This document shows positions 7,482 through 41,342 of a stretch of 64,000 nt of DNA, in pieces (within the stretch, counting starts at the first letter, position 1; every line of letters starts with the position of its first letter). Origin of the DNA: Boswellia sacra (Eukaryota > Streptophyta > Magnoliopsida > Sapindales > Burseraceae); NCBI GenBank assembly GCA_013180625.2, contig SNVD02014868.1, forward strand, positions 32,322 through 96,321, given 5' to 3'. Made by a program: the position numbers and the translations under genes. The notes under the pieces were generated by a model. It was not told where the DNA came from. It did no database searches and saw only the letters and a list, made by a program, of their open reading frames with translations.

Positions 7482-7560
7482 GTTAATGTTTTCTTTGTCT
7501 TTTTTAAACAATTTTATGTTTAAACTATATATGTTACAAGTGACGACTTTGTTGTTACAG

Positions 7561-15144: not shown

Positions 15145-15163
15145 GTAGTCCTCCCAGGCCCAA
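15145..15163 (-). other. Polypurine tract of the LARD-like element
   Basis: On the - strand the sequence immediately upstream of the LTR is GGCCTGGGAGGACTAC, purine-rich and directly abutting TGTTATGG. This is the expected plus-strand primer site. Confidence 0.65.
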
Positions 15164-16275: not shown

Positions 16276-16375
16276 CTGCGTTCATGCAGGTTTACGTAAG
16301 TTTTACAAGGACTCCCTCCAAGAAATTTGAATAAGCACGGGCGCATATCAGCAAATTTCAAAATTTCCATTATAT

Positions 16376-16700
16376 AACCTCGGGGGTGTTGGTGTAAAAT
16401 TTCAAAACCTTTACTTAAAATCCGGGGGTGTTTCTGAAAAATTTCAAAACTTTATTTTTATTTCGCGGGGGTGTTTCCGCGAAATTTCAAACTGTAATTT
16501 TTATTTCGCGGGGGTATTTCCGCAAATTTTAAACCTTTATTTTTATTTCGCGGGGGTGTTTCCGCGAAATTTCAAACTGCAATTTTTATTTCACGAGGGT
16601 GTTTCCGTGATTTTTTAAACTTAAATAATTTTTCCTCCGCGGGGGTGTTTCCGCGAATTTTCAAACTCAAATAATTTTTTCTCCGCGGGGGTGTTTCCGC
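16376..16700. repeat. Tandem array B (about 55-bp units)
   Basis: At least six units each carry CGCGGGGGTGTTTCCGCGAA followed by an A/T-rich tail (TTTCAAACT, ATTTTTATTT). The GC core of each unit is a near-palindrome (CGCGG...CCGCG) that could form a hairpin; the tails drift from unit to unit. Confidence 0.85.
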
Positions 16701-17627
16701 GAATTTTTAAGCCTTAATATTTTTTCCTTCGCGGGCGTGCTTCCGGGGATTTTCAAACATGAATAATTTTTCCTCCGCGGGAGTGCTTCCGCGGATTTTC
16801 AAGATTTAATATTTTTTTCCTCCGCGGACGTGCCTCCGCGGGCGTGCTTCCGCGGACGTGCTTCCGCGGGTGTGCTTCCGCGGACGTGCTTCCGCGGGTA
16901 TGCTTCCGCGGACGTGCTTCCGCGGATTTTCAGATTTGAATAATTTTTCTTCCGCGGGTGTGCTTCCGCGGATTTTCAAACTTGAATAATTTTTCCTCCG
17001 CGGGAGTGCTTCCGCGGATTTTCAAGCTTTAATATTTTTTTCCTCCGCGGACGTGCCTCCGCGGGCGTGCTTCCGCGGACGTGCTTCCGCGGGTGTGCTT
17101 CCGCGGACGTGCTTCCGCGGGTATGCTTCCGCAGACGTGCTTCCGCGGACGTGCTTCCGCAGATTTTCAGATTTGAATAATTTTTCTTCCGCGGGTGTGC
17201 TTCCGCGGATTTTCAAACTTGAATAATTTTTCCTCCGCGGGAGTGCTTCCGCGGATTTTCAAGTTTTAATATTTTTTTCCTCCGCGGACGTGCCTCCGCG
17301 GGCGTGCTTCCGCGGACGTGCTTCCGCGGGTATGCTTCCGCGGACGTGCTTCCGCGGATTTTAAGATTTGAATAATTTTTCTTCCGCGGGTGTGCTTCCG
17401 CGGATTTTCAAACTTGAATAATTTTTCCTCTGCGGGTGTGCTTCCGCGGATTTTCAGACTTGAATAATTTTTCCTCCGCGGGCGTGCTTCCGCGGATTTT
17501 CAAGCTTTAACACATTTTTTTTTTCTCCGCGGGCGTGCTTCCGCGGACGTGCTTCCGCGGGTGTGCTTCCGCGGACGTGCTTCCGTGGGTATGCTTCCGC
17601 GGGTGTGCTTCCGCGGATTTTCAATAC
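16700..17627. repeat. Tandem array C (CCGCGG-based 18-bp units)
   Basis: CTTCCGCGGACGTG / CTTCCGCGGGTGTG units of about 18 bases occur in runs. Longer spacers (ATTTTCAAACTTGAATAATT-like) separate these runs, giving a higher-order repeat of about 250 bases seen three times. Each unit contains the palindrome CCGCGG. Confidence 0.85.
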
Positions 17628-18910
17628 CATCCCCCAGCATTTTTTTTCTACCTCAGATAATGAACTGGAGGTTTGAAAAGTGGTGGGAGGCTGACTGTTA
17701 CACCCTTGATCTTCGCACATGGCTGGCATAACATGCCTTGCGTTACGCCATGGCTTGGAGTGGGCTGCAAGGGTGCATGCCCACGAGAAGCATATGGGTG
17801 AGTGCTTAAGCAAGGTGTGGAGACGTTGCATGGCGTCATTGATGCGCGAGGGGAAGCGCAAGGCAATGTGAACGCTGACACAAGGGGATGTGTAGCGCAA
17901 CGAAATAATACGCATGCATTGGTAGCGAGCGTAGTATGGCACGCACTTGGACGCACATGTGATGGGCGTGGCATAGTGAGATAACATGCACGTACGGGTG
18001 GTGAGCATGATGTGTGGAGTGCACACGGGAGTTGGGCGCGACACAACGATGATACGCGCATGTTGGGGGCAACGTAGCGCATGGACACTAGCACATGCAC
18101 GCATGCGGGCCGGGACGCTTGCGGGGTAGCAAGCATGCGCATGGGTAGCGCACCACAAAGTGGTGACATGGCGCATGGCATCGGGCGACACGGCGCACAG
18201 CAGCGATTCATGATTCATATGGGCGTGTTAGTGGGCTTAAAATATGGCACATATCCAAGAGGATTGTGGTTCCTAAAAATAAGGAAATAGTGGGTGAAAG
18301 TTGCTTCCTAAGGTTTTGGAAATGTAACTTCCCCACTAACTTAGTGGTTGAGAGGGTTCAACCATGTCCTTGAGAACAAGAATGACAGTGGGAAGTTAAT
18401 TCCCATATTCCATGCCTCCATCCCACTCATGGGTAGTTATGCTCATGAGGGAAGTGGGAAGTGACTCGAGGTGGTTACTTCCGGAGTGGGAAGTTACTCG
18501 GCGGAGTTAATTCCATGCCATGACCTTTAACCATGGGTGGTTATACCCATGAGAGGAAGTGGGGAGTTACAGGTAGTTAACTCCCATGATCTCCACTTGC
18601 GGGGGAGTGGAGGATTATGTGGCAGTATAGGAGCGCGCCACCTAGCCTAGTAGTTGGGGATGTCAACTACACGGAACCTAGCAACCAGGGTTGTTGGTTG
18701 GCTATATATATGTACCAAGATGGTGGGCTGGAAGTAGATAGACCCTCTAGGGGGAGGTCTCCAGGTAGAACTCTACAGGGGTAGAGAGTGACACAAGGGG
18801 AAAACACTTAGCGAACGGAGTAGCTAGTGTGAGTGTCATTGTGAGTGTTTCCAGCGCACAATCTTGGGGCTGATTGTATTCTTTTTACTCTTTTTATTTT
18901 ATCGCATAGG
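17628..18910. other. Unique-looking internal segment between arrays C and D
   Basis: Moderately GC-rich sequence with many GCATG and GCGCA words and a run of repeated AGTGGGAAGTTA-type phrases at about 18380-18620. No frame resembles a known protein. It may be degenerate older array sequence. Confidence 0.4.
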
Positions 18911-18929
18911 GGAGAAGCAAGTGAGCGTA

Positions 18930-20210
18930 GGGCGCGCTATGGAAAAACATTCAAGGCGCTGGGCGCGCAAGGGTGAAAGCATGCTAGGCGCTGGGCGCGT
19001 AGGGGAAGGCATGCTAGGCGCTGATCGCAGGGGAAGGGCATGCGAGGTGCTGGGCGCGCAAGAGGAAAGCATGCTAGGCGCTGGGCGCGCAAGAGGAAAG
19101 CATGCAAGGCGCTAGGCGCGCAAGAGGAAGGCATGCCAGGCGCTGGGCGCGCAGGAGGAAAGCATGCTAGCGCTGGGCGCCCAAGGGGAAGCATGCAATG
19201 CGCTGGGCGCGCACGAGGAATGCATGCTAGGCGCTGGGCGCGCAGGAGGAAAGCATGCTCGGCGCTGGGCGCACGGGAGGAAAGCATGCTATGCGCTGGG
19301 CGCGCAGGAGGAAAGCATGCAATGCGCTGGGCGCGCAAGGGGAAGCATGCAATGCGCTGGGCGCGCAAGAGGAAAGCATGCAAGGCGCTGGGCATGCAAG
19401 GCGCTGGGCGCGCAAGGGGAAGGCATGCAAGGCGCTGGGCGCGCAAGGGGAAGGCATGCAAGGCACTGGGCGCGCAAGAGGAAGGCATGCCAGGCGCTGG
19501 GCGCGCAGGAGGAAAGCATGCTAGCGCTGGGCGCGCAAGGGGAAGCATGCGATGCGCTGGGCGCGCAAGAGGAAAGCATGCTAGGCGCTGGGCGCGCAGG
19601 AGGAAAGCATGCTCGGCGCTGGGCGCGCGGGAGGAAAGCATGCTATGCGCTGGGCGCGCAGGAGGAAAGCATGCTAGCGCTGGGCGCGCAAGGGGAAGCA
19701 TGCAATGCGCTGCGCGTGCAGGAGGAAAGCATGCTCGGCGTTGGACGCGCGGGAGGAAAGCATGCTATGCATTGGACGCGCGGGAGGAGGAAAGCATGCA
19801 AGGCGCTGGGCGCGCAAGGGGAAGGCATGCCAGGCGCTGGGCGCGCAAGGGGAAGGCATGCCAGGCGCTGGGCGCGCAGGAGGAAAGCATGCTAGCGCTG
19901 GGCGCGCAAGGGGAAGCATGCAATGCGCTGCGCGTGCAGGAGGAAAGCATGCTCGGCGTTGGACGCGCGGGAGGAAAGCATGCTATGCGCTGGGCGCGCA
20001 GGAGGAAAGCATGCTATGTGCTGGGCGCGCAGGAGGAAAGCATGCTAGCGCTGGGCGCGCAAGGGGCAGCATGCAATGCGCTGGGCGCGCAAGAGGAAGC
20101 ATGCAATGCGCTGGGCGCGCAAGAGGAAGCATGCAAGGCGCTGGGCGCGCAAGGGGAAGCATGCTCGGCGCTGGGCGCGCAGGGGGAAGCATGCGAGGCG
20201 CTACATGCGG
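18930..20210. repeat. Tandem array D (31-bp units, about 40 copies)
   Basis: The unit is GGCGCTGGGCGCGCAAGAGG followed by AAAGCATGCTA. The spacing is 31 bases where units are complete (for example 19050 to 19081), with 28-30-base variants from small deletions. Each unit contains GGCGCGC-like and GCATGC palindromes. Long frames through the array on both strands arise from the lack of stops in this composition and shift every unit because 31 is not a multiple of 3. Confidence 0.9.
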
Positions 20211-20388
20211 CGTGTAGGTTACGTTATTTTGCAGGGACTCCTCCGAAGAAATTCAAACAATTACGAGGGTGTTTTAACAATTTCTTGAAACTTTGTTTTT
20301 TAAATCGATGGGGAGTAAGCGCGCGCACGGGCAGCACGCAACAATGCAGCGACATGGAGCATGGCATCCGACGAGGTGGTTCGAGGTG

Positions 20389-21024
20389 TTAGCCGTCAAG
20401 GACGCAAATGGGGTGCGTCCCGGACTTCCAAAAACCCTTACCAATTGATTGATATGGGTGATCACTAATAGTGAGAGGGCTGATGGTGCGATGTCCTCCT
20501 AACATCAGTTCCTTACCAGTGGCATATATCCGGGCTAGAGAACAGCGGATGGTGAAACGAGCTGCTGAGTGGGGTGAACATTCAGCATGGAGAGCAATAG
20601 GATGGTGAAGATTTGATTGAATAACCTGATGGCGAGGTAATCCAGTAGTCTGGGCGATTAAATCAGGATGTCCACCAACATCCGTCTGGACATGTGGTAC
20701 TACTAAGGCACTCATTGGGTTATTCCCAGCAATGTTTGCAGCCGGCTGGGCATTTTGCCCAAATGCTTGTTTGAACACAGTCACCATACGATTCATCTGT
20801 TCACTGAAATTCCGCATGGTGTGTTCCATGGTACTTAACCGATTCGCATTGCTCTTCTTCGGTCTTCTAAGTGGAAGCCGGGGTTGCCTGAGGTTAGGCC
20901 CCACCCCAGAGGATATCACTAATGCCCTCCCTGTATCAACTACCCTTCGGCGTCGGGGAGGTGCTTCGACCTCGATTTCTTCATCAACCTCTAGGGTGGT
21001 TGAGTGTTGGGATTCGTGGCTCAT
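20389..21024 (-). CDS. Truncated gag-like N-terminal protein of the LARD-like element
   Basis: The - strand frame from ATG 21022-21024 gives about 211 residues. It has an acidic start (EVDEEIEVEAPPRRRR), a basic/proline patch and MEHTMRNFSEQMNRMVTVFK, a likely coiled helix common at the N-terminus of Gypsy gag. The capsid domain, zinc knuckle and everything downstream are missing; the frame stops just before array D. The ATG lies about 60 bases inside the primer binding site, as expected for gag. It may be kept only because it overlaps packaging signals, or may be a relic. Confidence 0.6.
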   Translation of the reverse strand: MSHESQHSTTLEVDEEIEVEAPPRRRRVVDTGRALVISSGVGPNLRQPRLPLRRPKKSNANRLSTMEHTMRNFSEQMNRMVTVFKQAFGQNAQPAANIAGNNPMSALVVPHVQTDVGGHPDLIAQTTGLPRHQVIQSNLHHPIALHAECSPHSAARFTIRCSLARIYATGKELMLGGHRTISPLTISDHPYQSIGKGFWKSGTHPICVLDG

Positions 21025-21081
21025 GATGTGTTTGAATATGTTTTGGTAGGAGCAACAACTAAAGAGGCTTGAATTGTCGTT

Positions 21082-21099
21082 CCCCACAGACGGCGCCAA
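21082..21099 (-). other. Primer binding site of the LARD-like element
   Basis: On the - strand, two bases after the LTR end (CATCAACA), lies TTGGCGCCGTCTGTGGGG. This is the form of tRNA-complementary site found in many plant Gypsy elements. It fixes the element orientation and makes the right-hand LTR the 5' LTR. Confidence 0.8.
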
Positions 21100-21100
21100 C

Positions 21101-21783
21101 TGTTGATGCACGGTTTCCGGACGGCCGGGAAGCGGGTCGAGAAGCGGGTCGGAGCTCGGGTGGCACGTCGGGTCCAGTCCTGCGAGCAAAGAAAAACAGT
21201 CAGGGGTGCCGGCGGTGGTGCCGGCGGTGACCCTCCGACGCTCAAGTCAGTTTCCGGCACTCCAGAATTCTCTGGGAGAATTTCCTAGAGAGAGAGGCTC
21301 TCAAAAGTAAAGGAAATCTAGAGAGAGAGTAAGTTCAGAAAAGTGTGCATTACCTTGAGCAATGTTCCGGAGGGTTTATATAGGAGTCGGGATGGGCCAT
21401 TGTGGGACCCAGATAATAGGCCCAGATGATGGGCTACAGTAATGGGCTTACTGTAATGGGTTACAGTAATGGGCTTACTGTAATGAGCCCAGATCATGGG
21501 ATACGGTAATGGGCTTACCGTATTTATAAACAATTGAGCTGGGCTGGGCCATTGTGGGACCCAGATAGTGGGCCCAGATAATGAGATACAGTAATGGGCT
21601 TACTGTAATGGGCCCAGATAATGAGATATAGTAATGGGCTTACCGTATTATAGATAAATGATCTGGGCTGGGTCATTGTGGGACCCAGATAATGGGCCCA
21701 AATAATGGGCCACAATAATGGACCACAGTAATGGGCTTATTGTGTTAGAAATAATTAGGCCCAATATTATTATGGCCATAACA
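21101..21783 (-). repeat. 5' LTR (in element sense) of the LARD-like element
   Basis: 683 bases, partner of 14463-15144, and followed by the target duplication ATATT. It carries the same TAATGGGCTTACTGTAATGG-type internal repeats. Confidence 0.9.
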
Positions 21784-25812: not shown

Positions 25813-27335
25813 TGACACATCCGAAAAAGGATTGTCTCCCAAGTATAGGAGTATCGAAGTAATAATCCCGGTGAGACCGAGGTCGATCCACGAGGAAGGA
25901 GATCTTAGCGTTACAAATTATAAGATAAGCAAATATGATATGAATAATTCAAAGAAATGACAAGATAATATCAATAAATATGTAAGATGGTAGGCGGTAT
26001 TACCGACCATTCAAATATACAACAAAAAGCAAGAGAAGGTAAAACCATCCATGGAAATAGGTGGTATAACCAACCATAGTAAATTAAAGAACAATTTCAT
26101 AAGGTGGTAGAACCTACCATAGTAAATAAAATAAAAGTTCATAAACAATAGAATAATTAAAATACAAGAGGAATTAACACAATAACAATGAAGGCTAAGG
26201 TTAGGGGATCCGCCCTTGATATTTCAAATAAGGATAATTAACCCATTTTAGTTATATGAATTATATTTGTTTCATTACCAATATTTATACCACTTCTTGT
26301 AAATGGGTTCAAGCATCCAATGTGCCAATCACCATATGTCTACAACAAATCAAGGTTCCTAACTAGATTGTGTCGGTAAGGAAGAACCATACATCATCTA
26401 GAAAGAATCCAAGCATTTGATGTGCCAAGGATTGTCGACAATGGATCAAGACCTCCACTTTACGAGTGGTGTCAAGATTGATTAAGAAATTAAATACAAA
26501 TCATATTGAATAAACATTATTAGATTAAGATTATTAAGCACATATTTAAGGGTTAGAGAATCCTTATTCTCATATCAAGGGTTTCACCCTTTCACCTTAG
26601 CAAAAGAGAAATTAGAAGAACATTATAATAGAAAGAAAATAAAATGCAAGAAAAAGGAATTCATTAATAACATAAACACACAAAACACAATACAAGATCC
26701 TAGCCAAAGCCAAAATGTTCCAGCCCAGGCCAAGATGCCCTAATGGGTCACAAGGCACCTCTATTTATAGATACATCCAGGGGCAAACTTGTCAAATTAC
26801 AAGGGCATAATTGTCAAATATTAGTTGTAAATATCTTTGACAATTGAGATCATTAGGCACTGACTTTGACCATCAATTTGACATTGAAATATTGAGAATT
26901 TTAATCACATGTCTTCATGAACGTTGTAGATATTTCTCTCAGCTTTCTAGAACATATTGATTTGCACAATTTGGATACTTATTTTGAGAGATACGGTCCA
27001 AATACTGAGGCCTGGTCAGACTGGGCCGAGATTGTAGATGGGTTCACTTCAAGCCTAATTTTGGTCCACTAAGAGCCCGAATTTGATGATGCTTAAATGC
27101 AGTCTTATAAAAAATTGAATCGGCTTTCCAAAACATTAAGAATTGCACCATTCTGGTCTATAAATAGAGAGTTATACCCATTTTACCGAACCTGTAACAA
27201 AACCAAAATTAAGAGGAAGTTAATTCCAGAGATGCAAAAACTACAAATATGCTTAAGTTGAGGAATTTAATGACACTATTAATGCAATATGATGAACTAA
27301 GCTCTTATTAAACATACATATTTAAGTGTTCATCA
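25813..27335 (-). repeat. 3' LTR (in element sense) of element 1
   Basis: In - strand sense it starts TGATGAACACTTAAATATG and ends GGATGTGTCA, a proper TG...CA LTR. It matches 35833-37359 along its whole length. Confidence 0.92.
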
Positions 27336-28699
27336 CACCCCCCAACTAGCTTATTGCTAGTCCCTAGCAGTTAAAGCGTTATTATTTAGAAGTGATTTTT
27401 AGAATTTTACATCCAAGGTGGTCATTATTGCACTCTCCTTGATTTTATCCAAATAAACAAACTCTCAACCAATTATTATTATTATTATTATTATTATTTA
27501 TGACTCATGTACCTTTTGATCAAGATATCTATAAACCTTCATTTTGTGCTCAGTCAACACATGACTATGGGGCTTATTAGAGAGAAGCCATATCGGTTCT
27601 AATATTTGTTAAGGCTAACAACCTTAGGTAAGGGGCATTTATTCATTTTATATATATATATATTTTTTTTTTCTCTCTCTCTCTCTTTTTTTTTTTTAAG
27701 GAATGCATCTTTAACCCATATAGCGAGCCTTATGCTAATGACTCTCAAACCAGTTGGCCTTAGGGTATTAGGTGTTAAGACACCCCTTCGAGCTTAACGA
27801 CTCGAGTTGCCGATACTTTATTTTTGCTTAGAAACTTGTGGATAGTGCAATGTTCAATCCCATTAAGCTTTCTTCTTAATCCATGTAGCGAGCTTTGGGC
27901 CAATAGCTTCCAAACCAGTTGGTCTTAAGGTATTAGGTGTTGAGGCACCCCTCAGGCTTAATTGCTCGAATTAAGGAGGCTACGAGACCAAACTTATCCA
28001 TAATTGCTCTCTTCTTTTTTTTCACTTTTCTTTTTTTTTTTTTAACTTTCCCCTTCCTTTGTGTTGTTATCCTAAACAAAACAAAAGAACTCAAATATTA
28101 CAACAATTCATTTTGCCACCCACAATCATGCATCAAGGTATGTGTGTGTGTGTGAAGAAAGGCTCATGAATACTTGCTTAATGAGTACATAAGCGCACAA
28201 TTTTTTAAATGATAAGGTTGTGAGAGTTCATAGATTTGAATAATTCAAAGTGAAATGAATAATACCTCCTTGTTATAAAATTCAAAAATCAAGACTAAAT
28301 AATATCAAGTTAGCTAAAATGAGTTCACAAGATCAAAATAAAATGACAAATTGGTTAGAATGGGTTTCAAGAGTTCAAACTGGCCCTCCCTACTCTGCCA
28401 TTCCTGATCTAGAATGCGTCTCAAGAGGATTTGAACTCCTTACACCGCACTCTGAATCTAATTACTAACTCGCTTTTTTTTTTTTGCAAGAAAAAAAAAT
28501 TCAAGACACACTTATGTCTACTATCCTTCCCCCCCAAACAAATGAAACATTGTCCTCAATGTTTAAATGTAGAAAGATAAAGTATAAGGAAAATAACCTG
28601 AAGCTTCTGTTATTCAAGAGAGATGACCTGAAAGACTCATAAATAACATGCTAAAAATAAAATAAAATAAAGGACAAGAAAAAAATTACAAACGGAGAT
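27336..28699 (-). other. Polypurine tract and 3' untranslated region of element 1
   Basis: Directly beside the LTR the - strand reads AGTTGGGGGGTG, the polypurine tract. An (ATT)n run lies at 27471-27499. Two diverged copies of a segment containing CAAACCAGTTGG and GGTATTAGGTGTT lie at about 27715-27805 and 27880-27970. No coding frame is convincing. The same architecture, inverted, is in element 2 at 38470-39850, so it belongs to the family. Confidence 0.6.
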
Positions 28700-29334
28700 T
28701 CAGATCCAATTTGCACTTTTTTTTTGCCCTCCTGCCCAATTAATTTGAGTACTAGCTCGGTCAGGTTCACACTCAACTTCTTGTAATTTGTCAAGTAACT
28801 CACCAGCAGAAGTGGCAGAAACAAGGATCTTTCTCGCCCAATGTGGGATAAAATTTTGTTTTACAGCTGCATCAACAAAACTTATTAAAGGATCAAAGAA
28901 ATTGTTAACATTCAACAAACCTATGGGTTTTTGATGGAGATTCAATTGGGCCCAAGAGGCCATTTGAAAAATTTCTTCAAAAGTACCAAAGCCACCTGGT
29001 AAAGCAATAAAGGCATCTGAATTGATGAGCATATGTGCCATGCGTTCATGCATAGAGGAGACCTGTAACTCCGTCCCAACCGTTTTTCCAACGATGCTTT
29101 CTACAACCAAAGCTCTAGGAATAACTCCTAAAACTTGACTACCTCCTACATGTGCAGCTGTTGACACACAACCCATTAACCCGAGGCTACCTCCCTCATA
29201 AACCACATGAATCTTTCAACAGCCAGTAGCTTACCAAGATAGTTTGCTACTTCTACAAACTCCTCACTTTTACCCGGTCGAGATCCGCAGAATACACATA
29301 TCCTTTGGATTCGACGTTGTGAAGTTCCCTCCAT
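28700..29334 (-). pseudogene. LOG-like cytokinin riboside 5'-monophosphate phosphoribohydrolase carried by element 1
   Basis: On the - strand an ATG (29332-29334) starts MEGTSQRRIQRICVFCGSRP, the normal N-terminus of plant LOG enzymes. After LGKLLA the frame slips at about 29210-29225. The neighbouring frame then gives GGSLGLMG, VSSMHERMAHM, the hallmark PGGFGTFEEIFQ and KPIGLLNVNNFFDPLISF, to a stop at 28700-28702. About 211 codons is full family length. LOG proteins release active cytokinin bases from nucleotides in the cytosol or nucleus. The PGGxGTxxE motif and the HER arginine are kept, but the lysine after HER is Met and one glycine of the GGG start is Glu. No introns are present although plant LOG genes have several, so it was captured as a processed copy. 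Same strand as pol, between pol and the 3' LTR. Confidence 0.85.
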
Positions 29335-29650
29335 GTCTATGCAACTCTCTAACTATGTGTGAAGAAGAGAACAAGAGATGTGGTATTTATGGAGTGCAAA
29401 AAGGTATACTAATGATGATATCTATCTAGGTAGCTCGGTTGTTTGTTGAAAAATTTGACAATAATGCATAAAAATTCAAAAGATGATGAAATAAGACACC
29501 ATAAGTCAAACGAAAGATACAAATTCAAAAAATGACAGCTATGAGGTATTAAAATTCAAAAATGATGGCACGCATGCATATGTACAGGTAGTTGTGACTG
29601 TGGCTCATATCTTCCTCTGGTTTTACGTCTAGAAACGGCTTAAACACCTT
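29335..29650 (-). other. Spacer between the small cysteine-rich ORF and the LOG-like gene
   Basis: Non-coding, conserved in position with 37515-37838 of element 2 (shared words such as AAATTCAAAAATGATGGC). It may hold the leader of a subgenomic or spliced LOG transcript; no promoter element is certain. Confidence 0.4.
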
Positions 29651-30199
29651 CTATGAGTTGGGGATATGCTTCCCATCCAGTTTTCTTATAAACTGACAAA
29701 CAGGGTCGTTTTGAGTCAGATTCCCAAGAATATAGCGTTCCTGCTCATCTCGGAATTGTGTCCACAAATTAAAAATTTCACGCTGCACAAGTCCACAAGA
29801 ATGCGTCTCAAGAGTCATTCGGATATCATCCAAAGACTCCTTACTCAGTCCATTCTTGATGAACTGTAGTTTATCCTCTCGAGTGTTAGACAAATATCCC
29901 CAGGAGCGGCAACGCTGGTTACAAGTCCATCTTGCACATCTGGGACAAACTTGTAACCTTTTCGCTCTTCGCTTTTTGGCATAAGAGCTTTGTCCCAAAC
30001 CTGGCATGTGGGACACAAGATTATCTGAAAATTCATAGGAAAATCGAACCTTGGCTTCAATTAACCATCTTACTTTGACAGGCATACCCTTACACATCAA
30101 CATCCTTAGTCTTTCTGCACGAGCTTTGTAAATTTTAAGCAAATCATTTGGAGGAAGAGAGGGAAAATGTTTGTGCAGATTTGAGAGAATGGTGTCCAT
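29651..30199 (-). CDS. Small cysteine-rich basic protein, viral nucleic-acid-binding-protein-like (182 aa)
   Basis: The frame is intact from ATG 30197-30199 to TAG 29651-29653; an in-frame ATG 15 codons upstream is also possible. The N-terminal half is helical and hydrophobic/basic (about residues 1-80). At about residues 86-110 a basic run SSYAKKRRAKRL is followed by CPRCARWTCNQRC, a CxxC-x4-CxxxC knuckle, then SWGYLSN and an LQFIKNGLS helix. This order (aromatic-basic run, knuckle, short helix) and the size resemble the 3'-proximal cysteine-rich nucleic-acid-binding proteins of carla-, mandari- and related filamentous RNA viruses; that is inference from motif shape. It stands where Athila elements carry an env-like ORF, but I see no signal peptide or membrane helix. 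It is the only unbroken ORF downstream of pol, and its last 50 codons recur in element 2. Confidence 0.6.
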   Translation of the reverse strand: MDTILSNLHKHFPSLPPNDLLKIYKARAERLRMLMCKGMPVKVRWLIEAKVRFSYEFSDNLVSHMPGLGQSSYAKKRRAKRLQVCPRCARWTCNQRCRSWGYLSNTREDKLQFIKNGLSKESLDDIRMTLETHSCGLVQREIFNLWTQFRDEQERYILGNLTQNDPVCQFIRKLDGKHIPNS

Positions 30200-30322
30200 G
30201 TAAAAATGCGAGAAAAGAAAGAAAAATGAATGCAAGGTGAGCAATAGTTTTTAGGGAACTAAAAAACGGACTTTAAAAGTCAGGAGTACCGTATCCGCCA
30301 CTTGACCGGGAAAAATCAATCC

Positions 30323-33300
30323 TTAAAAAGGATCGATTAAAGCAATGGACTCTTCATTTTGGTCAAAATTTTCAAAGAATGGTTTTAACCGTTGTCCATT
30401 AACTTTAAACACATTACTATTCTTTGGGTTCTCAATTTCAACTGCTCCATGAGGGAAACCATTTTTAACAATAAAAGGCCCAGCCCAACGAGACCGAAGT
30501 TTACCAGGAAACAAATGCAATCTTGAATCATACAAAAGAACCTTTTGTGAAGGTTCAAAAGATTTTCTAACAATGAATTTGTCATGAAAAACCTTCATTT
30601 TTTCTTTGTAGATTTTAGAATTTTCATAAGCCTCATTCCTGATTTCTTCAAGTTCACTCAGTTGGAATTTACGTAATTTGCAAGCATCATTCAAATTTGT
30701 GTTGAATGTTTTAATGGCCTAATAAGCTTTATGCTCAATTTCCACGGCAAGTGACAAGGTTTTCCATAAACTAGTCTATAAGGAGACATTCCTAATGATG
30801 TTTTAAAAGCAGTTCGGTAAGCCCAAAGTGTATCACTAAGTCTTAAAGACCAATCTTTACGATTTGGGTTAACCGTTTTTTCTAAGATCTGTTTTATCTC
30901 CCTATTAGCTAATCCAACTTGTCCACTTGTTTGTGGGTGATAAGGTGTAGAAATTTTATGGGTTATTCCATATTTTTTCATTAAAGTTTCAAATGGTTTG
31001 TTACAAAAATGTGTACCCCATCACTAATAATGGCTCGAGGAATTCCAAATCTACTTAAGATATTCTCCTTCAAGAATTTGACAACTGTTTTGTAATCATT
31101 GTTTCGACATGGAATTGCCTCGACCCATTTTGAAACATAGTCTACTGCAACAAGGATGTACACAAAACCAAATGACGGTGGAAAGGGTCCCATAAAATCA
31201 ATACCCTAACAGTCAAAGATTTCAACGATAAGAATGGGATTCAACGGCATCATGTTTCTTTTTGAAATAGATCCCAATTTTTGACAATTTTCACACTTTT
31301 TGCAAAATGCATATGCATCTTTAAATAAGGTGGGCCAATAAAATCCACATTGTAAGATCTTAGCAGCTGTTTTTCTAGATGAAAAATGTCCTCCACATGC
31401 TTCAGAATGACAAAAGTTAATGACACTACTTACCTCATTGTCGGGTATGCATTTTCTTATTATTTGGTCTGGACAATATTTGAACAATTATGGGTCATCC
31501 TAGTAAAAATTTTTCACCTCGGTTAAAAATTTCCTTTTGTCTTGAGCATTCCAATGAGGTGGCATTTTTCCTGTTGCAAGAAAATTTATAATGTTAGCAA
31601 ACCAAGGTATAGTAGCAACGGAAAATAAAAACTCATCAGGAAAAGAATCATTGATAGGTGAAGTTTCAATTAATGTCTCTGTCGTTAGTCTTGAAAGATG
31701 ATCTGCAACGACATTTTCGGCTCCTTTCTTATCCGTTATTTTGATGTTAAATTCTTGGAGCAATAAGATCCACCGTATCAATCTAGGTTTTGCATCCTGT
31801 TTAGATATTAAATATCTCACAGTTGCATGGTCAGTGTAAACAATTGTCGGAGAACCAATTAAATAAGAACGAAATTTGTCCAATGCAAATACTACTGCAA
31901 GTAGTTCTTTTCAGTTGTTGTGTAATTCATTTGTGCATCATTTAAAGTCCTACTTGCATAGTATATTACGTAAGGCTTACCTTCTTTTCTTTGTCCTAAG
32001 ACAGCACCAACGGCATAGTCACTTGCATCACACATCACTTCAAAAGGCAAGGACCAATCAGGAGATTGCATAATTGGAGCAGTTGTTAAAAGTCCAATTA
32101 GTGTATCAAAGGCATTTTGACATTCTTGAGTCCATTCAAAGGAAGTATTTTTTATTAAGAGGTTACAAAGAGGTTTAGATATAGCACTGAAATTTCTTAT
32201 GAACCTCCTATAAAATCCAGCATGCCCTAAGAATGAACGAATCTTTTTAACTGTTTTTGGTGGAGGCAAATGGGAAATTAGTTCCACTTTTGCTTTATCC
32301 ACTTCAATTCCTTTAAAAGACACCACATGACCTAAAACAATTCCTGAAGTGACCATATAATGACATTTTTCCCAATTCAAAATAAGACCTTTTTCTACAC
32401 ACCTTTTTAGGACTTTTTCAAATTTTCAAGACAATTATCAAAAGAGTTTCCAAAGACAGTTAAATCATCCATGAAAACTTCTAAACAATGCTCAACCATG
32501 TCACTGAAAATGCTTAACATGCATCTTTGAAAAGTGGATGGGGCATTACAAAGTCTAAAAGGCATTCTCCTAAATGCAAAAGTGCCAAAGGGGCACGTGA
32601 ATGTGGTCTTTTCTTGGTCTTCAAGTGCAATGGGGATTTGATAGTAGCCTGAGTATCCATCAAGAAAGCAGTAGTAGGGGTTTCCTACTACTCTTTCAAG
32701 AATTTGGTCAAGGAAGGGTAAGGGAAAATGGTCTTTTCTAGTGACAGCATTTAATTTTCTATAGTCAATGCACAGCCTCCAACTAGATGAGACACGAGTT
32801 GGCAATAATTCACCCTTTTCATTTTTAACTACTGTAATGCCAGATTTCTTAGGTACTACTTGTGTAGGGCTTACCTACTTACTATCAGAAATAGGACAGA
32901 TAATTCCCACATCAAGTAGTTTAAGAACTTCAGCCCTAATCACCTTTTTCATATGGGGATTTAATCTCCTTTGAGGTTGTTGGGATGTTTTGGCATTTTC
33001 TTCTAAATGTATTCTATGTGTACAAATCAAAGGGTTAATGCCTTTTATGTCTTTTAAAGTCCACCTGATTGCATTTTTATGTCTTTTAAGCACATGTATC
33101 AACTTACCTTGTTGCTTGCTTGTGAGGGACAAAGAAATTACCATCGGATATGTCTGATTCTCCCCAAGATATGCATATTTCAGTCCTTCAGGTAAGGGTT
33201 TCAATTCTAACTTGGGAGCTTCCTCTTCCTTATTTTCATTCATTTGCCCCAATTCTTCAAATCTTGATTTTGAGCCTTTTTCCAACACCTGTGCACAATC

Positions 33301-33882
33301 CAGTAAAGAACACATATCAGAAAGATCATGTTCTAGTTCTATACTTGATTCTAACGAATTCACTAAACAAGTTTCCAAAGGGTTAGAAGAACTCCCTTTT
33401 TGGATGTGATCTTCCACAATAGATTCGATCATATTAGCCTCCTCAGTTTCTTCTTCTTCTTCATGTGTTTGTTTGCACATATTGAAAACATTTAGTTCCA
33501 ATGTCATGTTCCCAAAAGATAGCTTCATGACTCCATTCCTACAATTAATCAAAGCATTAGAGGTAGCTAGAAATTGGACGCCCCTAAAATGAACAGGAAT
33601 TGAATACATACTTCCACTGGTTTGTGTCCAAGACAATAAAATCCACTGGGTAAATGAATTTATTCGACTTGAACTAACAATCTTCTACTACTCCTCTTGG
33701 TACTTCAATTGATCTATCAGCAAGCAAAAGAGTCACAGAAGTCGGTTTTAACTCACCTAGATTGAGTTTCTGAAAAACTGAATATGGAAGCAAATTCACA
33801 CTAGCACCACAGAATCAAGTAAAAGCTTGTCAATTTTATGGTCCTCCATAACACATGAAATTGTAGGACAAACCTGGGATCC
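30323..33882 (-). pseudogene. Element 1 pol: protease, reverse transcriptase, RNase H, integrase (broken)
   Basis: Reading on the - strand: a protease segment with LLLDS near 33800-33825, whose DSGA triad is disrupted by two extra bases; an RT N-terminal part to 32875; the RT core 32407-32805 with RLCIDYRKLNAVTRKD and catalytic FMDDLTVF near 32465; RNase H from about 32000 to 31500 with CDASDYAVGAVLGQR and [10 protein letters not shown]; an integrase zinc region with H..H and CKKCENCQ (31206-31487); the integrase core with GPFPPSFGFVYILVAVDYVS and [10 protein letters not shown]; and a C-terminal part ending at 30323. At least six breaks (frameshifts near 33810, 32390, 31890 and 31010; stops near 32877, 31500 and 31205) separate these. 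The wording of RT and RNase H is Athila-like. Confidence 0.88.
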
Positions 33883-35734
33883 TTATTTCACTATATTATT
33901 ATTTTGAAGAATAGCACTTACTTGTTCGGATAGAAAGGCCTTCTTTTTCACATTCAGTTTTCTTTTCACAGTGCACAAGTCTTTCAAAAATTTTGCATCA
34001 GAAGGTACTTGTTTGATCACATCAAGCAAAGGAATGTTGACCTTTAGCTGTTTGAAAATTTCAAAGATTTCAGAATTGTGAGTTGGCTTCTTTTGTGTAG
34101 CTAATGCTTGAAGATATGGAGGCACAGATGAGGATTTGGTTTCCTCTTCGCTAGGTGTTGGTCTGGCAACCTCTTCCTGCCCTTTAGAGATCGATTCTTC
34201 TTCTTTCTCACAAGGGTTAGGAATATGTTTTGCAACAACCTTACCATTACGAAGGGTCATGACTGACTTGGCTTGGTCAAAATAATGGTTATTTGAACTC
34301 CCTGCATTTGAGTTAGATTGATCTTTGGGGTTTTGCAATGTTTGAGAAGGAAGTTTTCCCTTCTCTTGGATGCTAAATGTCGATGCAAATTTTGCAAGAG
34401 TTTCTGACAAATTTGCTAATGTTTGAGCAGTTTGACTATTGAAAGTCTCTTGCTTTATAATGAATGAATGCAATGTCTCTTCAAAGTCATTCCTAGGAGG
34501 AGGAGCATTTGCATGATCATGAGAATTTTGAAAATTTTGTCGTGTTTGAAAAGGGACTTGTAAAGATTGTGCATGATTGTCATTTTTCCAGCTAAAATTT
34601 GGATGATTTCTCCAACCAGGATTGTAGGTTTGTGAATATGGATTGTGATTTGGCCTTTTGAAAGTGTTCAAGGCATTGGCTTCTTCATGGAGACATTCCC
34701 TAAAGGCAAGCAAATTTGGGCAATCATCAGTAGAATGGTCATTGTCATCACAAATGTTACAGACATTTTCTTGAATAGACTTCAATTGACCACTCTTTTT
34801 CATCTCTAAAGCCTTGACTTTTCTAGCTTGGGATGCAAATTTGGCTTGAAGGTCATGGTCTTCCCTAAGGTTGTAAATGCCTCTATTGGATGTCGAGGTT
34901 GGGGCCTTGCTTGGCACCTCATAGGTGCCAGCAGTGTCCCAATTTTGTGCCTTTTCTGCCAAGGAATCTAGGAAGTCAAGTGCTTCCTCAGGATCTTTTT
35001 CTTTAAATTCTCCATTACACATTAATTCTACTAGTTGCCTATCTTGAGGTGTTAACCCTTCATAGAAGTGTGTAACTATTCTCCAAGTTTCAAACCCATG
35101 GTGAGGACAGGCATTAAGTAGTTCCTTTATACCTATCCTAACATTGGTAAAGGGTTTCCCCTTGTTTCTGAGAGAAATCAGAAATTTGTCTTTTAAGAGA
35201 ATTTGTTCTATGGGTAGGAAAAAAATTTTTCAAAAATTGTTGTTTCATCTCATCCCATGAACTAATGGAATTCGACCTCAAATTTTGTAGCCATGTTCTA
35301 GCTTTATCTTTTAAAGAAAAAAGAAAAAGCTTTAATCTAATGGTGTTTATGCTACAATTTGGGTCAGTGTAAGAGCTACATACCTCTTCAAAGAGTTTCA
35401 AGTGCGAATATGGGTTCTCCATGTCAAGGCCATGAAAAGTGGGTAGAATTCGAACAAAACTTGGTTTGAAATTGAAATGGATTGAATCTGGAGGAAAAAC
35501 TACACAAGATGGTGCACTAGTCCTTACCGGATTCATGTAGTCTCTGAGGGTTCTTCGTTGGTTTTGATCATTTTGTTGCGAACGGTTGTCCCCTTCATCC
35601 GTGAATATTTCCTTATGATTGTCGGCCATGTTTTCTAAGAAAGATGATGTTTTTCTAACAAGTCTACCACTAGATGTTCGTGACCAAATTTTCATGCAAG
35701 AAAGAGAGAAGAAAAGAGAGGAAAAGATGAACAA
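33883..35734 (-). pseudogene. Element 1 gag (broken)
   Basis: The - strand frame 35734-35138 covers the N-terminus and capsid (RTWLQNLRSNSISSWDEMKQ, then QFLKNFFPTHRTNSLKRQI). It ends where a tryptophan codon has become TAG (35138-35140), and one extra base follows at about 35118. The second frame, 35022-33883, continues with DPEEALDFLDSLAEKAQNW, a CCHC zinc knuckle (CNICDDNDHSTDDC at about 34720-34765) and a low-complexity C-terminus. Gag packages the element RNA in virus-like particles. The likely start is MADNHKEIF, 35 codons into the first frame. Confidence 0.85.
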
Positions 35735-35805
35735 ACAAAAAAACTAAAAAATTTAGATGTAAGATGAGAAAAGAGAATACTTACAATTTTGCACGCCAAT
35801 TTTTA

Positions 35806-35832
35806 CCTTCCCCGGCAACGGCGTCAAAAACT
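35806..35832 (-). other. Primer binding site of element 1
   Basis: Immediately inside the right LTR the - strand reads AAGTTTTTGACGCCGTTGCC then GGGGA. This matches the primer site style of Athila-type elements (usually TGGCGCCGTTGCCGGGGA) with one G-to-A change. It fixes the right LTR as the 5' LTR. Confidence 0.75.
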
Positions 35833-37359
35833 TGACACATCCGAAAAAGGATTGTCTCCCAAGTATAGGAGTGTCGAAGTAATAATCCCGGTGAGACCGA
35901 GGTCGATCCACGAGGAAGGGGATTTTAGCGTTACAAATTATAAGATAAGCAAATATGATATGAATAATTCAAAGAAATGACAAAATAATATCAATAAATA
36001 TGTAAGATGGTAGGCGGTATTACCGACCATTCAAATATAAAACAAAAAGCCAGAGGAGGTAAAACCATCCATGGAAATATGTGGTATAACCAACCATAGT
36101 AAATCAAAGAACAATTTCATAAGGTGGTAGAACCTACCATAGTAAATAAATAAAAAGTTCATAACAATAGAATAATTAAAATACAAGAGGAATTAACACA
36201 ATAACAATGAAGGCTAAGGTTAGGGGATCCGCCCTTGATATTTCAAATAAGGATAATTAACCCATTTTAGTTATATGAATTATATTTGTTTCATTACCAA
36301 TATTTATACCACTTCTTGTAAATGGGTTCAAGCATCTAATGTGCCAATCACCATATGTCTACAACAAATCAAGGTTCCTAACTAGACTTGTGTCGGTAAG
36401 GAAGAACCATACGACGTCTAGGAAGGATCCAAGTATTTGATGTGCCAATGATTGTCTACAATGGATCAAGATCTCCACCTTACGAGTGGTGTCAAGATTG
36501 ATTAAGAAATTAAATATAAATCATATTGAATAAACATTATAAGATTAAGAGTATTAAGCACATATTAAGGGTTAGAGAATCCTTATTCTCATATCAAGGG
36601 TTTCACCCTTTCACCTTAGCAAAAGAGAAATTAGAAGAACATTATAATAGAAAGAAAATAAAATGCAAGAAAAAGGAAATTCATTAATAACATAAACACA
36701 CCAAACACAATACAAGATCCTAGCCAAAGTCAAAATGTTCCAGCCAAGGCCAAGATGCCCTAATGGGTCACAAGGCACCTCTATTTATAGATACATCCAG
36801 GGGCAAACTTGTCAAATTACAAGGGCATAATTGTCAAATATTAGTTGTAAATATCTTTGACAATTGGGATCATTAGGCACCGACTTTGACCATCAATTTT
36901 GACATTCAAATATTGAGAATTTTAATCACATGTCTTCATGAAAGTTGTAGATATTTCTCTTAACTTTCTAGAACATATTGATTTGTACAATTTGGATACG
37001 AATTTTGAGAGATACGGTCCAAATACTGAGGCCTAGTCAGACTGGGCTAAGACTATAGATGGGTTCATTTCAAGCCCACTTTTGGTCTACTAAGAGCCCG
37101 AATTTGATGATGCTTGTGAAACACAATCTTGTAGACAATTGAATCATCTTTCCAAAACATTAAGAATTGCACCATTCTGATTTATATATAGAGAGTTATG
37201 CCCATTTTACCAAACCTATAACAAAACCAAAATTAAGAAGAAGTTAATTCCAAAGATGCAAAGACTACAAATATGCTTAAGTTGAGGAATTTAATGACAC
37301 TATTAATGCAATATGATGAACTAAGCTTTTATTAAACATACATATTTAAGTGTTCATCA
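35833..37359 (-). repeat. 5' LTR (in element sense) of element 1
   Basis: 1527 bases. It differs from 25813-27335 by scattered substitutions and single-base indels. The outer edge (TGATGAAC on the - strand) is fused without spacer to internal sequence of element 2 on the opposite strand. Confidence 0.92.
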
Positions 37360-37360
37360 T

Positions 37361-37514
37361 GCATTCTTGTGGACTGGTGCAACATGAAATTTTTAAATTG
37401 TGGACACAATTCCGAGATGAGCAGGAACGTTATAGTCTTGGGAATCTGACTCAAAACGACCTTGTTTGCCAGTTTATAAGAAAACTGGATGGGAAGCATA
37501 TCCCTAACTCATAG
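37361..37514 (+). pseudogene. C-terminal fragment of the small cysteine-rich ORF in element 2
   Basis: It aligns with the last 50 codons of the element 1 ORF: QEIFNLWTQFRDEQER-like wording, then GNLTQNDLVCQFIRKLDGKH, ending at TAG 37512-37514. The start and the zinc-knuckle part lie beyond the breakpoint. One in-frame change is conservative, so the reading frame was kept in both copies until recently. Confidence 0.75.
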
Positions 37515-37838
37515 AAGGTATTTAAGCCGTTTCTAAACGTAAAAACAGAGGAAGATGTAAGCCACAGTCACAGCTGCCTGTACATATGCATGTGTGCTAT
37601 CATTTTTGAATTTTAATACATTATAGCTGTCATTTTTGAATTTGTATCTTTTGTTTGACTTGAGCATTTATTGTGTTTTATTTTATCAACTTTTTTTTAA
37701 TTTCTATGCATTATTGTGAAACTTTTTCAACAAACAACCGAGCTACCTATTTAGATGTCATCATAAGAATACCTTTTTGCACTCCATAAATATGACATCT
37801 CTTGTTCTCCTCTTCACATAGTTAGAGAGTTCATAAAC

Positions 37839-38430
37839 ATGGAGGGAACTTTAAAACGTCAAATCCAAAGGATATGTGTATTCTGTGGATCTCGACTAGT
37901 TAAAAGTGAAGAGTTTGTAGCAGTAACAAATTATCTTGGTAGGCTATTAGCCGAAAGAAAGATTCATATGGTTTATGGGGAGGTAGCCTCGAGTTAATGG
38001 GTTGTGTGTCAATAGCTGCACTCGTAAGAGGCAATCAAGTTTTAGGTATTATTCCTAAAGCTTTGGCTGTAGAAAGCATCATTAGAAAAATGGTTGGGAA
38101 GGAGTTACAGGTCTCCTCTATGGATGAATGCATGGCATATATGCTTATCAATTCGGATGCTTTTATTTCTTTACTAGGTGGCTTTGGTACTCTCGAAGGA
38201 ATTTTTTAAATTGTGTCTTGGGCCCAACTAAATCTCCATCAAAAACTCATAGGTTTGTTGAATGTTAAAAATTTCTTTGATCCTTTGATAAGTTTTGTTG
38301 ATGCAGCTGTAGAACAGAATTTTATCCCTCATTCGGTGCGATAGATCCTTGTTTTTGCCACTTCTGCTAATGAGTTACTTGACAAATTACAAGCAGTCGA
38401 GTATGAACCTGACCCAGCTATAACTTAAAC
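37839..38430 (+). pseudogene. LOG-like gene in element 2, broken
   Basis: ATG 37839 starts MEGTLKRQIQRICVFCGSRL and runs through YLGRLLAERKIHMVYG, more intact at this point than the element 1 copy. One base is then lost at about 37980 (a G in the GGG of the family motif), causing a stop. The shifted frame resumes as LMGCVSIAALVRGNQVLG and reaches LGGFGTLEGIF, where the hallmark Pro is Leu and a second Glu is Gly. A stop follows at about 38208, another (CGA to TGA-type change beside GTGCGATAG) near 38342, and the end is near 38430. It is non-functional. Its breaks differ from those of element 1, so both descend from an intact ancestor. Confidence 0.82.
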
Positions 38431-39852
38431 TAATTGGTCAGGGGGACAAAACAAAAGGTGCAAATTGAATCTGAATCTCCATTTGTAATTTTTCTTGTCT
38501 TTTATTTTGGCATTTTATTTTACGTGTTTTTCAAGTCGTCTCTCTTAAATAACAGAAGCTTTAGGTAATGTCTCATATACTTTATCTCTCTATGTTTAAA
38601 CATTGAGGACAATGTTTCATTTGGTTGGGGGGGAAGGATAGTAGAAATAAGTGTGTCTTGAATTTCCTTTTTCTTAAAAAACAAAAAAACATAAGTGTGT
38701 CTTGAATTTTCTTTTTCTTGCAAAAAAAAAATGAGTTAGTAATTAGATTCAGAGTGCGGTGTAAGAAGTTCAAATCCTCTTGAGACGTATTCTAGATTAG
38801 GAATGGCAAAGTAAAGAGGGTCAGTTTGAACTCTTAAAACACACTCTAACCAATTTATCATTTTATTTTTGTATTTTCGAAGACTTATTTTAACTAACTT
38901 GATATTATTTAGTTTTGATTTTTGAATTTTATAACAAGGAGGTCATATTCACTTCACTTTGAATTCTTCAAATCTATGAACTCTCACGACCTTATCATTT
39001 AATAAACTGTATGCTCATGTACTCATTAAGCAAGCATTCATGAATCTTTCTTCACACACGCACATACCTTGATGCATGATTGTGGGTGGCAAAGTGAAAT
39101 GTTATAATATTTAAGTTCTTTTGTTTTGTTTAGGATAACAACAAAAGGAAGGGGAAAGTAAAAAAAAAGAAAAAGAAAAAAAGAAAAGAGCAATTGTGGA
39201 TAAGTTTGGTCTCGTAGCCTCCTTAATTCAAGCAATTAAGCCCGAGAGGTGCCTTAACACCTAATACCCTAAAACCAATTGGTTTGAGAGCTATTGGTGC
39301 AAAGCTCGTTACATGGATTAAAGAGAAAGCTTAATGGGATTGAACATTGCACTATCTACAAGTTTCTAAGCAAAAATAAAGCATTGGTAAATCGAGCCGC
39401 TAAGCTCGTAGGGGTGTCTTAACACCTAATGCCCTAAGGCCAACTGGTCTAGGAGTCATTAGCCTAAGGCTCGCTACATGGGTTAAAGATGCATTCTTTC
39501 AAAAAAAAGAAAAAAAAGAGAATAAATATATATATATATATATATACAAAAATAATGATGAATGAATCCCCCATGCCTAAGGTTGTTAGCCTTAACAAAG
39601 ATTAGAACTAATATGGCTTTTTTCTAATAAGCCCTATAGTCATGTGTCGACTGAGCACAAAAAAAAAAGGTTTGTTAATATCTTGACTGAAGGGTACATG
39701 AGTCATTTAAAAAAATCGGTTGAGAGTTTGTTTATTTGGATAAAATCAAGGAGAGTGCAATAATGACCATCTTGGATGTAAAATTCTATAAATCACTTCT
39801 AAATAATAACGCTTTAATTGCTAGATACTAGCAATAAGCTGGTTGGGGGGTG
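38431..39852 (+). other. 3' untranslated region and polypurine tract of element 2
   Basis: Inverted counterpart of 27336-28699, with the two diverged copies of the TACCCTAA...CCAATTGG segment near 39235-39310 and 39400-39480 and a (TA)n tract near 39528. It ends with polypurine tract GGTTGGGGGGTG. Confidence 0.65.
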
Positions 39853-41329
39853 TAATGAACACTTAAATATGTATGCTTAATAAGAGCTTAATTCATCATA
39901 TTGCATTAATAGTGTCATTAAATTCCTCAACTTAAGCATATTTGTAGTCTTTGCATCTTTTGAATTAACTTTCTCTTAATTTTGGTTTTGTTGTAGGTTC
40001 GGTAAAATGGGCATAACTTTCCATTTATAGATCAGAATAGTGCAAATCTTAATGTTTTAGAAAATTGATTAAATTATCTACAATATTTATCTCATAAGCA
40101 TCATCAAATTCGGGCTCTAGTGGACCAAAAATGAGCTTGAAGTAAACTCATATGCAGTTTCATCCAAGCCTGATCATGTCTCAGTATTTTGATCATATCT
40201 CTTGATATACATATCCAAATCATATAAATCAAGATGTTCTAGAAAGCTGAGAGAAATATCTACAACTTTCATGAAGACATGTGATCAAAATTCTCAATAA
40301 TTCGATGCCAAAATTAGTGGTCAAAGTTGGTTCACCTAATTGCCCCAATTGTCAACAAAATATTTGACAAATGTTCCTTTGTAGTTTAACAAGTTTGTCC
40401 CTGAATGTATCTATAAATAGAGGTGCCTTGTGACCCATTAGGGCATCTTGGCCTTGGCTGGGATCTCTTGTTATTGTGTTTTTCTCTCTTGTGTTTTAAT
40501 GTTATTAATGAATTTTCTTTTTCTTGCAATTTATTTTCTTTCTTTTATAATGTCTTGCTAAATTATCTCTTGCTAAGGTGAAAAGGTGAAACCCTTGATA
40601 TGAGAATAAGGATTTTATAACCCTTGCCATGTGCTTAATAATCATAATCTTGTGTTGTTTATTTTATATGATTTATATTTATTTCTTAATCAATCTTGAC
40701 ACCACTCGTAAAGTGGAGGTCTTGATCCATTATAGACAATCATTGGCACATCAAATGCTTGGATCCTTTCTAGATGTCATATGATTCTTCCTTACCGACA
40801 CAAGTCTAGTTAGGAACCTTGATTTGTTACAGATATATGGTGATTGGCACATTGGATGCTTGAACCCATTTACAAGAAGTGGTATAAATATTGGTAATGA
40901 AACAAATATAATTCATATAACTAAAATGGGTTATTTATCCTTATTTGAAATATCAAGGGTGGATCCCCTAACCTTAGCTTTCATTGTTATTGTGTTAGTC
41001 TCTCTTACTTGTGTAATTTAAGTATTCTTATTTATTATTTATAAACTTGTTCCCTTATTTACTATGGTAGGTTTTACCACCTATTCTCATGGATGGTTTT
41101 ACCACCTTTTGTTTTTGTTTTACATTTGAATGGTCGGTAGTACCGCCTACCATCTTTACTTTTATTTGTTAATATCATCTTGTTAATTATTTGAATTATT
41201 CATATTATATTGGCTTACCTTATAGTTTGTAGTGCTAAATCCCCTTCCACGTGGATCGACCCCGGTCTCACTGGGTTTATTACTTCGACACTCCTATGTT
41301 TGAAAGATAATCCTTTTTTGGATGTGTCA
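39853..41329 (+). repeat. 3' LTR of element 2
   Basis: It starts TAATGAACACTTAAATATG (one base altered from TGATGAAC) and ends GGATGTGTCA. It is collinear with, but clearly more diverged and about 50 bases shorter than, the LTRs of element 1. Confidence 0.88.
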
Positions 41330-41342
41330 ACTTGGCTATCTT

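Follow-up and report, generated by a model that had tools for sequence, protein, structure and literature searches.

The evidence supports the reading that a LOG-like gene found in a 64,000-nucleotide stretch of Boswellia sacra DNA (hereafter the window) is a selected cargo gene of an Athila-type Ty3/gypsy retrotransposon, as judged from the pattern of variation among its copies. The gene is located between pol and the 3′ LTR, downstream of a gene that resembles the carlavirus NABP. The pair recurs in the same order at many places in the genome.

The element in question, element 1, is Athila-like, occupies 25813-37359 on the minus strand and was recognized by its LTRs, gag and pol domains. Its 5′ LTR (35833-37359, minus), whose ends read TGAACAC...GTGTCA, is 95.3% identical to the 3′ LTR (25813-27335, minus), ahead of which lies a G-rich tract. 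The order of transcription is gag, RT, RNase H, integrase zinc finger, the NABP-like gene, and the LOG-like gene, all in sense orientation. The gag region (33883-35743, minus) consists of two overlapping open stretches; PF03732 (Retrotrans_gag) was matched at 2.5e-14 in 35138-35743, and a Pfam scan of 33883-35229 gave no match. The pol remnants (30323-33684, minus) contain RVT_1 (2.2e-19), and a Pfam scan of pol located RT_RNaseH (2.4e-16) at 31500-31910 and Integrase_H2C2 (1.4e-13) at 31209-31487. The NABP-like gene follows at 29651-30250 (minus; Carla_C4 8e-7, Viral_NABP 9.8e-6) and the LOG-like gene at 28700-29334 (minus). The K2P distance of the LTR pair is 0.0435. Plant substitution rates are 7e-9 to 1.3e-8 per site and year, which places the insertion of element 1 at roughly 1.7 to 3.1 million years ago. 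A target-site duplication was sought at both ends of the element and was not found, and therefore one flank has probably been rearranged.

A second, truncated member of the family, element 2 (37361-41330, plus), retains the end of the NABP-like gene (37361-37514, plus, assigned by collinearity), a LOG-like gene (37839-38488, plus), and a 3′ LTR (39855-41330, plus) with 85% identity to the element 1 LTR. Positions 37361-38689 are collinear with 29804-28474 of element 1 at 87% identity. The K2P distance is 0.13 between the two LOG copies and 0.14 between the LTRs of the two elements; therefore, the two are distinct members of the family, and a recent segmental duplication does not account for them. 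Element 2 abuts the 5′ LTR of element 1 at 37359/37361 in the opposite orientation, and one reading of the junction is a nested insertion followed by a deletion.

The assignment to Athila came from the sequence-only reading of the window and is consistent with the domain order. A candidate primer-binding site, TGACGCCGTTGCCGGGGAAG, which may be Athila-like, lies within a few bases 3′ of the 5′ LTR of element 1. RNase H is directly followed by the integrase zinc finger, with no aRH in between. In Ogre and Retand, angiosperm Tat lineages, aRH is described as sitting between RNase H and integrase (PMC6317226, in part), and therefore both are excluded at that criterion. From the domain order and the absence of aRH, element 1 fits the Athila type (Ty3/gypsy, non-chromovirus OTA). 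The Athila ORF-1 domain PF03078 had no match in the scanned pieces of the window; this domain is not required for membership and is given as present in 16% of Athila elements in the same source (PMC6317226, in part).

The window contains further repeats and gene remains. An LTR-flanked element at 14463-21783, with terminal copies 98.2% identical, is packed with GC-rich tandem repeats that create long spurious open stretches in several frames. At 58579-63314 lies a Ty1/copia-type element (RVT_2, 1e-61) whose 162-base terminal repeats are 94% identical. Resistance-type gene remains or exons at 4324-8115 and 46335-46907 match NB-ARC, Roq1-type winged helix, leucine-rich repeats, and C-JID.

The main part of the element 1 LOG gene, 28700-29215 (minus), remains open over 171 codons and matches PF03641 at 1e-37 and the structure of Arabidopsis At2g37210 (2a33) at 1.6e-49. 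We take this structure to be LOG3, and database relatives near-identical to it carry that name. The N-terminal part extends upstream, in a frame different from that of the main stretch, to an ATG at about 29334. Compared with the uninterrupted copy L020, the element 1 gene has two frameshifts and one stop, and it keeps the PGGFGTFEE motif. The element 2 gene has lesions of its own, including a frameshift, the replacement of PGG by LGG, and, further downstream, three in-frame stops. The sequence-only reading had proposed a sense-oriented LOG gene between pol and the 3′ LTR, an N-terminal part in another frame, a second copy at the equivalent place, and different lesions in each copy, and all four points are borne out by the domain matches, the LTRs, the orientation of gag and pol, and the collinearity. 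It had overlooked the NABP-like open reading frame between pol and LOG.

The number of copies was assessed in the genome from which the window comes, 638.6 Mb in 7431 contigs. A PF03641 profile search produced 10,198 first-look candidates, and the best 150 all (150/150) contain the whole 131-position domain without a stop. A search with the window LOG protein produced 12,875 first-look candidates, and the best 150 are all 88 to 100% identical, with no stop in the matched stretch in 133/150 and one stop in 17/150 (counted by eye). This count is blind to frameshifts outside the matched stretch, and the window's own copy was scored as stop-free though it is frameshifted outside it. The two lists of best 150 have four places in common (overlap by eye) and give at least 296 distinct LOG places; only the best candidates were scored, and therefore the true copy number is higher and well-preserved copies are over-represented. 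A full-length host LOG query against the same genome returned, as its best-scored matches, 150 copies with about 50% identity, each full-length and in a single frame. Given that the element LOG is a single exon, capture from mRNA, as was proposed earlier, is plausible. The copies fall in two subfamilies: a, which is window-like, and b (L001-L007), which is 66 to 69% identical to the window over the LOG domain. Many identically scoring open copies of subfamily b are present among the best PF03641 matches, and this subfamily looks recently amplified.

To describe the neighborhood, we used two sets of loci. The LOG-anchored set consists of 30 loci (L009-L038), the window's element included. The NABP-anchored set consists of 50 loci, thinned from the 70 that best match the NABP of the window, and is not a random draw: L039-L068 are the first 30 rows, with the window's element among them, and L069-L088 are every second of rows 31 to 69. 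The window's element appears twice, as L009 and as L039, and the 80 fetched loci therefore represent 79 distinct places. In 76/80 loci, LOG follows NABP in the same orientation at a distance of 300 to 332 bases (median 316). Among the LOG-anchored loci, an NABP-like gene lies upstream in 29/30 (the exception, L033, is on a short contig), and the start of the 3′ LTR falls inside the fetched flank in 27/30 (missed in L024, L025, and L036). In subfamily b, a diverged NABP is present in six of seven loci and missing in L001. Among the NABP-anchored loci, more than 90% of LOG is present in 44/50; it is partial in L040 (contig end), L050, and L065, and absent from L075, L081, and L085. LOG is uninterrupted in 9/50 of these copies and broken in 41/50. 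The uninterrupted forms agree with the claim that the ancestral gene was intact, and the evidence supports the view that LOG belongs to and moves with the element.

Best-match lists favor conserved copies, and for this reason selection on LOG was tested in the NABP-anchored copies and selection on NABP in the LOG-anchored copies. Coverage removed 6/50 and 2/30 loci, respectively, leaving 44 and 28. LOG variants private to one copy comprise 161 replacements, 55 silent changes, and 13 stops, or 0.97 of the neutral expectation. Variants in two or three copies (66 replacement, 28 silent, 5 stops) have a ratio of 0.85. In four or more copies we counted 48 replacement, 46 silent, and 2 stop variants, and the replacement ratio is 0.41 for variants in 4 to 9 copies and 0.45 for those in 10 or more. 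The contrast between variants in at least four copies and private variants is significant by the Fisher test (p = 7e-5), also without C-to-T and G-to-A changes (p = 0.0024); without those changes, the variants in at least 10 copies (14 replacement, 8 silent) show no depletion. When stops are treated as replacements, the true frame has an odds ratio of 2.9, as against 0.80 and 0.82 for the shifted sense frames and 0.80, 1.83 (p = 0.019), and 1.52 for the antisense frames; the weak shift in the second of these may come from third positions lining up. The odds ratio was 3.3 in the 25 frameshift-free copies and 2.8 to 4.2 in four random subsets of 30/44. The private variants are a built-in neutral control, in that inserted copies decay freely, whereas the lineages that continued to move were constrained.

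Comparison of the LOG genes of subfamilies a and b gave a dN of 0.227, a dS of 1.277, and an omega of 0.18 (range 0.13-0.24), from 93 pairs between 31 and 3 uninterrupted copies, with dS near saturation for the method used. Within subfamily a, omega is 0.26. An omega of 0.10 to 0.14, obtained from variants in four or more copies of the LOG-selected set, is not counted as evidence. The depletion of shared replacements and the dN/dS between subfamilies together argue that LOG is a long-kept, selected gene of the element. Purifying selection among element copies, raised as a possibility by the sequence-only reading, thus finds support, and the two outcomes it had named as fatal, a dN/dS of about 1 since capture and only two copies from one segmental duplication, are contradicted by a dN/dS well below 1 and by the far larger number of copies found. 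For NABP, shared and private variants differ at p = 0.0035 in 28/30 LOG-anchored copies; the contrast is weaker in the NABP-anchored set (p = 0.007, or 0.11 without deamination-type changes). By these counts, apparent purifying selection is shown for NABP as well, less strong than that on LOG.

The NABP-like gene is an open stretch of 199 codons with an ATG at codon 18. The window protein scores 29.4 bits with Carla_C4 (cut-off 20.9) and 26.1 bits with Viral_NABP (cut-off 23), in alignments restricted to 26-63 of 91 profile positions, the zinc-finger core, and to 118-202 of 227. At E 0.001, Carla_C4 was matched in 13/16 and Viral_NABP in 14/16 aligned members. The predicted model is poor (pLDDT 53). 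The search for related proteins found 296 homologues, with Populus, Acer, Xanthoceras, Rhamnella, and Orobanche among the best 120. In the parts of the literature covered, carlavirus p12 is described as acting in nuclear transcriptional activation and cytoplasmic silencing suppression, with developmental reprogramming of the host (PMC7588395), and hyperplasia is mentioned for the carlavirus protein (PMC12172455). By analogy, a cassette of NABP and a LOG-derived enzyme suggests possible host-cell manipulation.

Relatives of the LOG protein are present in other plant genomes. A protein search found 7802 LOG-type sequences, and the best 120 span several plant genera, including Diplodiscus, Reevesia, Pterospermum, Populus, Melia, Xanthoceras, Rhamnella, and Primulina. 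For several clusters the membership runs to dozens or hundreds (P0071: 327). In a first tree, from which two of the 120 proteins were left out by length, the remaining 118 and eight sequences from the window's own genome are all separate from 40 host LOG1/3-type proteins. A second tree comprises 57 proteins; in it, 34 element-type proteins are monophyletic (UFBoot 99), six (P0025, P0061, P0062, P0067, P0079, and P0097) lie outside the element clade, and 17 hosts lie beyond; the host sampling in these trees is mainly of LOG1/3 types. The six are perhaps host LOGL10-like genes. Element-type LOGs P0051, P0054, and P0083 of Populus are annotated as LOGL10-like or hypothetical genes. Among Rhamnella gene models, P0201 fuses NABP and LOG and P0187 fuses the integrase end and NABP. 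LOG and NABP matches from sequences of equal length (8723 for P0001/P0123 and 2128 for P0026/P0162) suggest a single contig for each pair; there are also equal lengths near 1 kb, which may be chance. The placement of the element-type LOGs of other species within elements is thus partly shown. Among viral contigs, no relatives were found for the six patterns searched, and the 160 matches among plasmid records are all below 60% identity, the five listed being bacterial.

The LOG protein matches TIGR00730 with 169 bits (cut-off 96) and PF03641 above its cut-off; it does not reach the cut-off of the equivalog NF058542 (113 vs 300). Active-site residues were counted in 102 element-type proteins and 96 host LOGs, after 12/114 and 24/120, respectively, were dropped by length and the six proteins outside the element clade, all with Lys99, were set aside. 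Among the element-type proteins, the catalytic residues Arg98 and Glu121 are kept in 96/102 and 100/102, Thr118 in 102/102, and the glycines of PGGxGT in 100 to 101 of 102. The residue next after Arg98 is Lys99 in 96/96 hosts vs Met in 40, Ile in 39, Leu in 22, and Lys in one of the element-type proteins. In the window's own genome, Lys99 was found in 0/80 readable loci of 92 fetched. Columns that are invariant in hosts are better conserved among the element proteins (mean pairwise identity 0.76 vs 0.55, p = 1e-8), and the element majority residue differs from the host residue in 25/92 of them, the Lys99 column included; the change of Lys99 may be part of a general drift of the protein. The predicted model of one uninterrupted copy (pLDDT 80.5) has 2a33 as its top match, with a TM of 0.93 by target and an rmsd of 1.4. 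The element LOG is a constrained LOG fold in which the base pocket is changed and still hydrophobic. In the available part of a report on the type-II LOG of C. glutamicum, Lys156, the equivalent of Lys99, forms part of the adenine site and of the predicted prenyl site, its replacement by Ala abolished all activity, and the Arg155, Thr175, and Glu178 mutants were likewise inactive (PMC5379747). By analogy, the activity of the element LOG may have been lost with the replacement of Lys99, and the label of a cytokinin-activating gene, given to it by the sequence-only reading, is not established.

We give about an even chance to a joint reading in which a captured and selected LOG with a changed base pocket acts beside NABP to shift the host cell in favor of the element. 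An Athila-like Ty3/gypsy lineage would have acquired an intronless plant LOG coding sequence long ago and retained it as a regular component of its 3′ part, beside the carlavirus-type NABP gene. LOG would still be a nucleotide phosphoribohydrolase, with an altered base pocket, and both proteins would be made from the element RNA. Through cytokinin or related nucleotide pools, cell division, or silencing, their action would alter the host cell in a way that favors transcription of the element or its passage to daughter and germ cells. We hold more tentatively the possibility that one lineage across several rosid families carries a two-gene cassette, a virus-type silencing suppressor or transcription activator and a LOG-derived enzyme with its base pocket remodeled for a new nucleotide substrate, with both genes under selection.

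A rather unlikely alternative is that the LOG fold has turned non-catalytic and serves as a nucleotide-binding or an RNA- or protein-binding accessory in replication. It would explain the loss of a residue that a relative needs while the rest of the protein is strongly constrained; however, the catalytic Arg and Glu would then be dispensable, and they are kept in 96 and 100 of the 102 proteins. Their retention, with the family match, the fold, and the strong constraint (omega 0.18), would suit an ordinary cytokinin-activating enzyme of unchanged function. We consider such an enzyme unlikely, in view of the near-uniform replacement of Lys99 (101/102 with Met, Ile, or Leu) and the requirement for the equivalent Lys in the bacterial LOG (PMC5379747, in part).

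Unless the alignment or the sampling is faulty, it is very improbable that LOG is inert and was multiplied by hitchhiking. The 41/50 broken copies in a sample that was not chosen by LOG, and the neutrality of private changes, speak for this account; however, replacements are under-represented among shared changes when LOG is read in its true frame, an effect that neither shifted sense frame shows, the between-subfamily dN/dS is 0.18 at a dS of 1.28, and the catalytic residues are conserved over about a hundred proteins. That the copies are host genes or one segmental duplication merely lying within repeats, for which no supporting point was found, is refuted by the hundreds of places on many contigs and by the constant NABP-LOG-LTR order; the grouping of the element-type LOGs in a single clade (UFBoot 99), separate from the host LOG1/3-type proteins sampled, also speaks against it, and it has almost no probability left.

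The presence of a LOG domain in Gypsy elements is already in print, and the kind of element described here is thus partly known. The YgdH domain of LOG proteins has been reported for two Citrus species, C. sinensis and C. clementina, in Gypsy consensuses that passed a threshold of five or more consensus sequences per species, and, without that threshold, in Gypsy elements of P. trichocarpa, in agreement with the cited Steinbauerova 2011 (PMC9289625, in part). The part of PMC7264820 that was covered does not name LOG, and the words sought are absent from PMC11963269, on Retand elements. A literature search, in which little subscription content was covered, recognized no report of NABP in retrotransposons or of selection on LOG. 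As far as was searched, the virus-like partner, the evidence for selection, and the changed residue are new.

Whether the extra genes of plant LTR retrotransposons do anything has been asked in a survey whose covered part considers extra frames of at least 250 codons only, longer than this LOG gene (PMC6317226). The family described here makes the question testable: its copies number in the hundreds and contain their own neutral control, selection on them can be measured, the fold is that of a named enzyme with one active-site residue changed almost throughout, and the constant neighbor is related to a viral silencing suppressor. In addition, element-type proteins annotated as host LOG, such as LOGL10 in Populus, would inflate the counts of cytokinin-activation genes.

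Among known systems, the Citrus and Populus elements share with this family a LOG-family domain in a rosid Ty3/gypsy element, and section 12 of that report is silent on lineage, neighboring genes, selection, and the active site (PMC9289625, in part). The AlkB demethylase elements of orchids are likewise Gypsy elements with an added catalytic gene and differ in the enzyme, in the host (Phalaenopsis), and in that activity was demonstrated in vitro (PMC9289625, in part). The cysteine-rich NABP, or p12, of carlaviruses shares with the element protein both Pfam families and a basic stretch followed by a Cys cluster, whereas the element protein is typically 182 residues long, has extra N- and C-terminal regions, and is encoded by a retrotransposon. 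The plant LOG phosphoribohydrolases (2a33 and the host LOG1/3 type) share the fold, the PGGxGTLEE and GGGxxGLMG motifs, and the catalytic Arg and Glu. Unlike them, the element LOG, at about 47 to 53% identity, has a replaced Lys99 and a single open frame, and a KLDL-type tail is present in 85/120 of the best protein matches vs 0/120 host-type proteins.
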